From NCBI RefSeq assembly GCF_014635185.1, contig NZ_BMCM01000004.1, positions 310,001-374,000 of the forward strand: DNA of 64,000 nt, given 5' to 3'. Source of the stretch: Microbacterium murale. GTDB lineage: Bacteria; Actinomycetota; Actinomycetes; Actinomycetales; Microbacteriaceae. A program made the position numbers and the translations under genes. The notes beneath the pieces are model-generated. The model worked only from the letters and a program-made list of their open reading frames with translations. It searched no databases and was not told the origin of the DNA. This document shows, piece after piece, positions 24,977-42,324 of this stretch. How positions within the stretch are numbered: the stretch's first letter is position 1; every line of letters begins with the position of its first letter.

Positions 24977-25267
24977 GGGCCTCTAGCTCAGTTGGCAGAG
25001 CATCGGACTTCAACATAATAGGAGCGCCTCGAGGGAAACCTCGGGGATGACACCACTCAAAGTCGGGGAACCCTTCCTGGGAGACCAGTTGGCAATCCCG
25101 AGCCAAGCCGGACGCAAGCCCGGAAGGTGTAGAGACTGGACGGGTGGCACCTAAAGCGAAAGCCAGGGTGAAGGGACAGTCCAGACCACGAACGTCCGAC
25201 GGACGGCGGCGAAAGTCGAAGTGGTATGTTAATCCGCGGGTCATGGGTTCGAGCCCCATGGGGCCCA
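24977..25267 (+). tRNA. tRNA-Lys(UUU), split by a group I intron
   Basis: Exon 1 is 24977-25010 and exon 2 is 25229-25267; joined they make 73 nt. The acceptor GGGCCTC pairs with GGGGCCC, the D arm is GCTC/GAGC, the anticodon stem is CGGA/TCCG, and the T arm is ATGGG/CCCAT around TTCGAGC. The discriminator is A and CCA is not fully encoded. The joined anticodon loop is CUUUUAA, giving anticodon UUU. The intron enters between anticodon positions 34 and 35, as in cyanobacterial tRNA-Leu(UAA). Without removal of the intron the gene cannot give a tRNA. Confidence 0.92.
25011..25228 (+). mobile_element. group I intron, IC3-like, 218 nt, in tRNA-Lys(UUU)
   Basis: Exon 1 ends in U and the intron ends in G, as group I splicing needs. 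CUU|C at the 5' site can pair with GGAG (25021-25024) to form a short P1 with U-G at the cut. A P2 hairpin (25027-25046) has a GAAA loop. A Q-like AATCCCGAGCC (25094-25104), an R-like GTGTAGAGACTGGACGG (25127-25143) and an S-like ACAGTCCAG (25176-25184) form the core, with P7 CTGGAC/GTCCAG. Further GNRA loops occur at 25081-25084 and near 25211. The core closely resembles the Azoarcus tRNA-Ile intron, a self-splicing IC3 member. No open reading frame lies inside. Confidence 0.92.
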
Positions 25268-25305: not shown

Positions 25306-25800
25306 ATGAAGATGTGCGGCACGTGTCAGATGGTCAAGCCGCTGTGCGAGTTCAATCGGAAGTCCTCTCGCGCAGACGGCCGCCAAGAAGTCTGTCGCGA
25401 ATGCAATCGGGCATCATCGCGGAAGTACTACCGACAGCATCGGGCACACCACAAATCAGTGATTCGGGCGCGGACGATCGCGCAGCGATCTGTGAGCATC
25501 GCATTCATCACGAAGTATCTGAACGACCACCCTTGTGTCGACTGCGGAGTTTCAGACCTCCGCGTACTCGACTTCGATCACCGACCGGGCGGCAACAAGC
25601 GCGACGGCGTGATGCAACTCGTTCGGAACGGGTTCGGTCTGTCAATCATCGAAGACGAGATCAGCAAATGTGATGTGCGCTGCCGTAACTGCCACGCCAT
25701 CGTGACCTACGAGCGCATGGGGAACAACTGGCGTTCGACGGCGGCGGGTAGAAGTGTGCCGCCGCCTGGCTGCGATACGACGGTTCTTCACGACCTCTAG
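25306..25800 (+). CDS. free-standing HNH (His-Me finger) endonuclease-like protein
   Basis: This 164-residue protein has an N-terminal zinc-ribbon-like part (Cys4, Cys7, Cys30, Cys33, pattern CxxC...CxxC) and a His-Me finger part: HPCVDCG (Cys77, Cys80), LDFDHR (Asp91, His92) and CRNCHAIVTYER (Cys126, Cys129, His130). Many phage and mobile HNH nucleases share this plan. It starts 38 bp after the intron-bearing tRNA-Lys. GC in the four 60-nt lines I counted averages about 57 percent, clearly below its neighbours. A -10-like TATCGT 6 nt before the ATG suggests a leaderless message. Homing of the adjacent intron is an attractive but untested role. Confidence 0.75.
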   Translation: MKMCGTCQMVKPLCEFNRKSSRADGRQEVCRECNRASSRKYYRQHRAHHKSVIRARTIAQRSVSIAFITKYLNDHPCVDCGVSDLRVLDFDHRPGGNKRDGVMQLVRNGFGLSIIEDEISKCDVRCRNCHAIVTYERMGNNWRSTAAGRSVPPPGCDTTVLHDL

Positions 25801-41807: not shown

Positions 41808-41850
41808 ATGAAGAAGGTCCCCGCACTCACGGTGCGGGGACCTTCTTCAT
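41808..41850. terminator. bidirectional terminator between acs and ridA-like gene
   Basis: A perfect 19-bp stem (41808-41826 with 41832-41850) with a 5-nt loop TCACG lies between convergent genes. Confidence 0.92.
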
Positions 41851-41865
41851 GTAGAGACGAGTTGC

Positions 41866-42324
41866 TCAGGCGAGGGTGAAGGTCACCTCGACCTCGACCG
41901 GGCTGTCCAGAGGCAGCACGGCGACGCCGACGGCTGCGCGAGCATGCTGTCCGGCGTCGCCGAAGATCTCGCCGAGCACGTCGCTCGCGCCGTTGATGAC
42001 GCCGGGCTGGCCGGTGAAGGCCGGATCGGATGCCACGAAGCCGCCGACGCGCAGTACGCCGCCGATCTTCTCCAGTCCGCCTGCGGCGGCGGCCGCGGCG
42101 GCGAGAGCGTTCAGCGCGCAGGTGCGCGCGTAGGTCTTGGCGTCTTCGGCGGTCACCTCTGCGCCGACCTTTCCGGTCGCGGGCAGGGCACCGGATGCGA
42201 ACGGCAGCTGACCCGAGGTGTACACGAGGCCGGCGTGCACGACGGCGGGGACGTAGGCCGCGACGGGGGCGGCGACGTCGGGCAGCTCTATCTCGAGCTC
42301 ACTCAGCCGGGCCGCGATGCTCAT
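41866..42324 (-). CDS. RidA family protein (YjgF/YER057c/UK114)
   Basis: The 152-residue protein has the family features VHAGLVYTSGQLPF, DAKTYARTCALNALAAAAAAAGGLEKI and the C-terminal PLDSPVEVEVTFTLA. RidA hydrolyses reactive enamine and imine intermediates of amino acid metabolism. The catalytic Arg of classical RidA is not at its usual place (here AAVGVAVLPL), so this belongs to the Rid group of less certain activity. It overlaps the DUF4177 gene stop by 4 nt. Confidence 0.85.
   Translation of the reverse strand: MSIAARLSELEIELPDVAAPVAAYVPAVVHAGLVYTSGQLPFASGALPATGKVGAEVTAEDAKTYARTCALNALAAAAAAAGGLEKIGGVLRVGGFVASDPAFTGQPGVINGASDVLGEIFGDAGQHARAAVGVAVLPLDSPVEVEVTFTLA

Follow-up and report, generated by a model that had tools for sequence, protein, structure and literature searches.

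A group I intron in the sole tRNA-Lys(UUU) gene of Microbacterium murale and a predicted free-standing HNH endonuclease gene beside it

In the 64,000 nucleotides of Microbacterium murale DNA analysed here (the window), the gene for tRNA-Lys(UUU) is interrupted within its anticodon by 218 nt. This raises the questions of what the insert is, whether the cell depends on its removal, and how it came to lie in an essential tRNA gene.

The host gene and its intron

While ARAGORN called no tRNA-Lys in the whole, unjoined window, it recognized a full 73-nt tRNA-Lys(ttt) once positions 24977-25010 and 25229-25267 were joined. The locus comprises four features:

24977..25010, + strand: 5' exon of tRNA-Lys(UUU), tRNA positions 1-34, ending GGACUU (ARAGORN on the joined exons; 34/34 identical to the intronless gene of genome G139)
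25011..25228, + strand: 218-nt group I intron between tRNA positions 34 and 35 (RF00028 match, core covariation, exact empty site)
25229..25267, + strand: 3' exon of tRNA-Lys(UUU), starting UUAAUCC (ARAGORN on the joined exons; comparison with G139)
25306..25800, + strand: predicted HNH endonuclease gene, 164 aa (PHROG 2255, fold match, pN/pS, linkage to tRNA-Lys(UUU))

The insert begins with CAACAUAAUAGGAG and ends with GUAUG, and tRNA nucleotides U34 and U35 flank the splice junction. Both this junction and the lysine identity follow from the terminal G of the insert and from the uninterrupted GGACTTTTAATCC in relatives. The intron mode of ARAGORN set the splice one base off and called tRNA-Asn(gtt), an assignment we rejected; the same mode misnames many other intron-split copies as Asn(gtt), and such genes are missed altogether by ARAGORN without intron mode and by the Rfam tRNA model. 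The clearest empty site is found in G139, a genome near that of the window on a topA tree (98% topA protein identity), where no insert separates the exons and the gene agrees with the window's joined exons at 73/73 nt. Its flanks match the window at 84-89%, and it contains neither the intron nor the HNH gene. Judged from these sequences the insertion is precise, such that its removal would restore an intact tRNA exon sequence.

The elements read within the intron are listed below, where type A denotes introns of the window's kind:

25021..25024, + strand: internal guide sequence GGAG (sequence reading; invariant in 16 type A introns)
25008..25011 with 25021..25024, + strand: P1, C25008-U25009-U25010-C25011 paired with GGAG (CUUC/GGAG; four pairs in RNAalifold of four genomes)
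25053..25058, + strand: P3 5' strand CCACUC, pairing with GGGUGG at 25142-25147 (4/6 pairs vary on both sides)
25063..25101, + strand: P4-P5 domain, P4 being UCGGGG/UCCCGA (3/6 P4 pairs vary on both sides)
25102..25128, + strand: P6/P6a (GCC/GGU; CCGGAC GCAA GCCCGG), with one A·C mismatch in P6a of the window's copy (core covariation alignment)
25132..25138, + strand: P7 5' strand, G, bulged A, GACUG, pairing with CAGUCC at 25177-25182 (paired in 33/33)
25148..25170, + strand: P8 (core covariation alignment)
25186..25224, + strand: P9 with two sub-hairpins (CCAC/GUGG; CGUCC/GGACG; CGGC GAAA GUCG), one of them with compensatory changes (RNAalifold, four genomes)
25228, + strand: last nucleotide of the intron, a G (unchanged across 16 type A introns and across 32 tabulated loci)

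These elements place a U·G pair (U25010·G25022, that is, U34·G) at the 5' splice site within P1, a G at the end of the intron, and between them a P3-P8 core with a P3/P7 pseudoknot and a bulged A in P7, which by analogy would be the guanosine-binding helix. In an alignment of 33 cores, 97.8% of the cells are paired and 23/40 pairs show two-sided changes, a level reached by 0/500 shuffles, while slid registers pair at most 41.4%. The underlying P3-P7 model was built from 14 near relatives. For the helices in that model the alignment is a fitted one; P7 is the exception, having been left unpaired. P7 nevertheless pairs in 33/33 sequences in the register G, bulged A, GACUN / NAGUC, C, and its variable pair is G-C in 21, A-U in 10 and U-A in two; because this covariation lies outside the modelled pairs, we counted it for the group I class. 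The same model scored 140-141 bits with two Frankiales tRNA-Lys copies, 106 with the tRNA-Lys copy of Gordonia phage Daredevil, 72-77 with other actinobacterial fMet-type introns, and 37-42 with a second intron type found in Microbacterium and Agromyces tRNA-Lys (type B, see below). Copies in the window's genome and three further genomes of the genus are 90-100% identical. The conservation of copies, their presence in 34/367 Microbacterium genomes and the covarying core argue that the intron is not a chance structure. Minimum-free-energy folding gave no signal (z -1.07; 34/200 shuffles fold equally well), and we set it aside as evidence.

A sequence-only reading of this DNA had proposed a group I intron, flanked by a U at the 5' cut and a G at its own end, in the anticodon of a 73-nt tRNA-Lys(UUU). 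Its exon coordinates are exact, and the class, the two splice-site nucleotides and the position in the anticodon all agree with the analyses above. The P7 helix drawn there, CTGGAC/GTCCAG, is in the wrong register, with two pairs broken in 12 and 9 of the 33 sequences. Rfam model RF00028, which the same reading had named as a check, does match (25001-25197, 34.8 bits, E 3.8e-7 in 651 nt searched) yet falls short of its gathering score of 50, and for this reason a default whole-window Rfam scan at gathering reports no intron. Rfam is a weak guide to type A introns in general: RF00028 left one type A copy (L066) unmatched at E 0.1 and the two Frankiales copies (L236, L237) at 0.001, matched the Gordonia phage copy at 15.4 bits over part of the model, and scored 49.8-60.4 bits with type B. 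Taken together, the sequence evidence makes it close to certain that the insert belongs to the group I introns of bacterial tRNAs (IC3-like), and both intron and host are secure.

Bacterial IC3 group I introns have tRNA-Leu(UAA), tRNA-fMet(CAU), tRNA-Ile(CAU) and tRNA-Arg(CCU) as hosts. We take the Azoarcus tRNA-Ile intron as the structural model, which the Microbacterium intron presumably resembles, and its R- and S-type strands are, we assume, like those of known bacterial tRNA introns. With those introns it shares the common size, the P3-P8 core, the U·G pair at the 5' site, the terminal G and insertion in the anticodon loop; it differs from them in its host, a sole-copy tRNA-Lys(UUU), in its lineage, Microbacterium and other Actinomycetota, and in having a free-standing HNH gene outside the intron. 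Group I introns in bacterial tRNA-fMet and tRNA-Ile2 are described in PMC8450103. In the literature searched, which lay largely outside subscription journals, no group I intron in a bacterial tRNA-Lys(UUU) was found, in line with the earlier suggestion that the host may be new; with the present locus, tRNA-Lys(UUU) joins the tRNAs that harbour such introns in bacteria. PMC5733544 claims "group I introns" for tRNA-Arg, -Gly and -Lys(CTT) of cyanobacteria; at 22-49 nt (37 or 49 nt in tRNA-Lys(CTT)) these inserts are too short for a group I core, and we rejected them as a precedent.

The suggested dependence of the cell on splicing was borne out at the level of genes. All 44 other tRNAs that Rfam found in the window's genome were read; one of them is Lys(CUU) and none is Lys(UUU), and a query made of the joined exons returned only the two exon halves. 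AAA codons occur twice in topA and twice in a holB-like gene. Since the split gene is the only tRNA-Lys(UUU), a status that is secure for this assembly, the gene content predicts that the cell must splice. Across the 34 type A genomes the joined-exon query never matched better than exon halves (best E at least 5e-14); a diverged second UUU tRNA was checked for in the window's genome only.

Two intron types with a patchy distribution

A survey of tRNA-Lys(UUU) in relatives, also proposed in the sequence-only reading, showed that presence of the intron is patchy. Type A occurs in 34/367 Microbacterium genomes, one genome per species, and type B in 17/367. The latter figure comes from a DNA search, as an RNA-model search loses type B because few candidates get scored. 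Type B introns are about 56% identical to the window's intron and longer (245-269 nt by ARAGORN), and they split a different tRNA-Lys(UUU), which often encodes CCA. Together, in 51/367 Microbacterium genomes, roughly one in seven, tRNA-Lys(UUU) is split by an intron and an intact ordinary copy is lacking. A topA tree built from 30 hand-picked genomes (18 with and 12 without intron) requires 5 changes of the type A label versus 9.6 for shuffled labels, and at least 3 changes are forced on well-supported branches.

In a sample of 396 genomes from across the phylum, 10 besides that of the window gave an intron match, and the hosts that could be read were Ile(CAU), fMet and Asn(GUU). Related introns in an apparent tRNA-Asn(GUU) of other Actinomycetota (L121:1428-1743, L125-L128) possibly represent another unreported host. 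In two Frankiales metagenome-assembled genomes a type A intron, 83% identical, sits in tRNA-Lys with an HNH gene downstream. Gordonia phage Daredevil (NC_048021.1, about 41822-42131; L085:3994-4303) carries a tRNA-Lys(UUU), unannotated in the record, that is split at 34/35 by a 238-nt group I intron 77% identical to that of the window. This tRNA adjoins an integrase gene, with an HNH gene about 0.5 kb away, which makes phage a possible route of transfer. Viral contigs gave six matches to the type A pattern, of which the Daredevil record is the only one in tRNA-Lys; for type B there was no match in phages and no viral-contig match to its pattern.

As to where the intron came from, the likely source, judged from the exon sequences, is the intron of tRNA-Leu(UAA), whose 5' exon ends alike. 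Cyanobacterial tRNA-Leu(UAA) introns use the same GGACUU site, and in the huge phage LR756511 (LR756511.1; L086:1369-2153) a group I intron splits tRNA-Leu(UAA) at the same position 34/35 and after the same 5' exon end (GGACTT|AAAATCC). Because both genes are split after GGACUU, the guide of a Leu intron would fit tRNA-Lys(UUU) unchanged. The phage tRNA-Leu(UAA) intron appears, by eye, to contain an HNH-like ORF.

The HNH gene beside tRNA-Lys(UUU)

At 218 nt the intron is too short for an endonuclease gene and codes for nothing. An ORF starting 39 nt past the last base of the tRNA (25306-25800) is, by sequence and predicted fold, an HNH endonuclease, a neighbour absent from the sequence-only reading and one that changes the story. 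The protein shows CxxC ... CxxCN zinc ligands together with DFDH and CRNCH, and the CxxC, DFDH and CxNCH residues are invariant in 11 homologues. It matches PHROG 2255 "HNH endonuclease" (E 1.5e-30) and also PHROG 3106, and Foldseek relates its predicted model, of moderate confidence (mean pLDDT 81.6, pTM 0.60; five models 60-82), to phage HNH endonucleases (best E 1.7e-14, TMq 0.64, rmsd 10 angstrom). Searches returned no Pfam or NCBIfam family at 0.001 and nothing relevant from the PDB by sequence. With pN/pS of 0.13-0.36 in eight pairs, the HNH genes tested are under purifying selection. Relatives of the protein occur at 13 loci on viral contigs, and plasmids gave only 7 distant matches. 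A second, weaker homologue (39%) lies in the window's genome about 195 nt from another tRNA (G000:C3:113940-114236).

The gene is linked to type A introns. Among the 20 best HNH loci of the genus, 17 adjoin one, and in the 34 type A genomes a near full-length HNH gene (defined by a match over no fewer than 134 residues of the protein in the window) lies downstream on the same strand in 21, a frameshifted or truncated one in four (G014, G342, G360, G253) and none in nine; the near full-length set includes G245, with a frame change near the end, and G323, with a stop near the end. Where measured, the gene starts 39-160 nt past the tRNA. In total, 25/34 of these endonuclease-less introns have a linked endonuclease gene, four of them damaged, while 14 intronless loci examined with their flanks contain no HNH gene. 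Of the 80 Microbacterium genomes that lack an intact ordinary tRNA-Lys(UUU), 42 have a strong homologue (E <= 1e-30; 42/367 genomes in all, against 60/367 at 1e-10); of the 287 that do possess such a tRNA, none has one (Fisher p 3e-33, kinship of the genomes ignored). Here "intact ordinary" means a best E <= 1e-15 with the joined-exon query, and the 287, counted by eye, takes in G002 and G075 despite their broken native copies, which makes the true number slightly lower.

As a family, these HNH genes track tRNA-Lys(UUU) with or without introns. Among the best 80 of 174 named homologues, 62 have a tRNA-Lys(UUU) gene no more than 200 nt away by pattern and 31 have an intron core; for the best 54 the former count is 53, and in the remaining one (L231) tRNA-Lys(ttt) was called by ARAGORN only. 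That gene (L231:877-961) is an odd one of 85 nt with a long variable arm, beside the HNH gene. More distant homologues adjoin other tRNAs, as in Chloroflexi and others, where they lie beside tRNA-Gly, -Arg or -Gln (L234, L235, L245, L248, L252, L253, L257-L259), for which reason the wider family seems to follow tRNA genes. Intronless tRNA-Lys(UUU) genes with an ordinary anticodon arm stand beside an HNH gene in Agromyces (L217, L223, L224, L228). At other loci (L047, L056, L060, L072, L074-L076, L079, L084, and, in Agromyces, for example L206 and L213-L216) an intronless, diverged tRNA-Lys(UUU) is oriented divergently from the HNH gene; it has an odd T arm, GTCGGAA or ATCGTAA against the usual TTCGANN, and a low Rfam tRNA score, about 51-54 bits where scored.

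Proposed homing and its alternatives

We consider it likely that the account as a whole holds, in which a self-splicing intron occupies the sole tRNA-Lys(UUU) and the HNH endonuclease serves as its vehicle by collaborative homing; taken by itself, the part of the HNH protein as homing partner is an even call. Splicing, as we infer it, would begin with a guanosine bound in P7 attacking after U34, which the internal guide holds in P1; the 3'-OH of U34 would then attack after the terminal G, joining U34 to U35, and the product of the two transesterifications would be an ordinary tRNA-Lys. The probable vehicle, encoded 39-160 nt downstream, is expected to cleave tRNA-Lys(UUU) genes that lack the intron, or their flanks, whereupon repair from an intron-bearing copy would move both the intron and the HNH gene into the cut allele, and presence of the intron would protect the carrier's own gene. 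What would be the stages of such a cycle exist side by side: an empty site (G139), both parts together (G000, G285), a broken HNH gene (G014) and the intron alone (G164, which has lost its HNH gene, along with most of the gene that follows, to a deletion beyond the tRNA).

Collaborative homing, in which a group I intron has its insertion site cut by a free-standing endonuclease encoded close by, is described for phages in PMC10448857 and PMC2988022. The likeness lies in an endonuclease-less group I intron with an endonuclease gene just outside the host gene; the difference is that the phage examples concern protein genes, whereas here the host is an essential tRNA on a bacterial chromosome and cleavage is inferred. 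SegB of phage T4, a free-standing homing endonuclease of the tRNA region (PMC2988022), is similar in that its gene lies among tRNA genes, in a region with biased inheritance. SegB is a phage-borne GIY-YIG enzyme, whereas the Microbacterium gene is chromosomal and of the HNH type. With its natural empty sites and decayed copies, Microbacterium offers a chromosomal setting for testing collaborative homing and essential-gene drive.

Several findings count against this account: Rfam scores type A only weakly, HNH genes also stand beside intronless tRNA-Lys(UUU), nine of the 34 type A introns have no HNH gene, and the clustering of type A on the topA tree also fits vertical descent with losses. One alternative, an intron inherited vertically in one Microbacterium clade, lost repeatedly and no longer mobile, would account for both the low number of changes (5 against 9.6) and the missing or broken HNH gene in 13/34 carriers. 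We consider it rather unlikely, given that the same kind of intron is found in the tRNA-Lys of Frankiales and of a phage and that the HNH genes tested are under purifying selection. A stronger contender, falling only somewhat short of an even chance, is that, with the intron itself genuine, the HNH gene acts as a selfish element of its own, homing to tRNA-Lys(UUU) loci whether or not they hold an intron, its linkage to the intron being a by-product of the shared target. Such a gene would be expected beside intronless tRNA-Lys(UUU), as it is in Microbacterium, Agromyces, Frankiales and others, and it occurs in two orientations relative to the tRNA; against this stand the absence of a strong homologue from all 287 Microbacterium genomes with an intact ordinary tRNA-Lys(UUU) and the recurrence in Frankiales of the order type A intron, then HNH gene.

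The remaining two alternatives concern the tRNA itself. tRNA-Lys is a known target of anticodon nucleases of the PrrC type, and three allele classes all alter this one tRNA, which might suggest that split or altered genes shield the cell from such nucleases. As splicing of type A would restore the ordinary tRNA sequence and leave the RNA target unchanged, this reading is very improbable. Scarcely credible is that the gene is a dead pseudogene and another tRNA reads AAA: a low Rfam score, and nothing else, speaks for it, while the gene is the only UUU tRNA beside 44 others, 34 genomes, each of a different species, contain the core, and the copies that were read have kept both intron and exon sequences.

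Returning to the HNH protein as a homing endonuclease, its position beside intronless tRNA-Lys(UUU) implies that the intron is not the only escape from it and that the cut site may lie elsewhere. It is tempting to speculate that it drives the replacement of an essential, chromosomal single-copy tRNA gene in Microbacteriaceae and some other Actinomycetota, with resistant tRNA-Lys(UUU) alleles (split by a type A intron, split by a type B intron, or diverged) spreading together with the nuclease. We hold this idea tentatively, as somewhat less probable than its negation; if true, the group I intron would mark resistance to a gene drive that occurs naturally in bacteria.

A separate observation concerns two mobile elements of about 22 kb and about 35 kb (G002, L039:6417-6738; G075, L175:4880-5201). 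They encode a DUF6262 protein besides two tyrosine recombinases (families assigned in G002, with homologues in G075), interrupt the anticodon arm of the native tRNA-Lys(UUU), and bring a replacement tRNA-Lys(UUU) that contains a type B group I intron.
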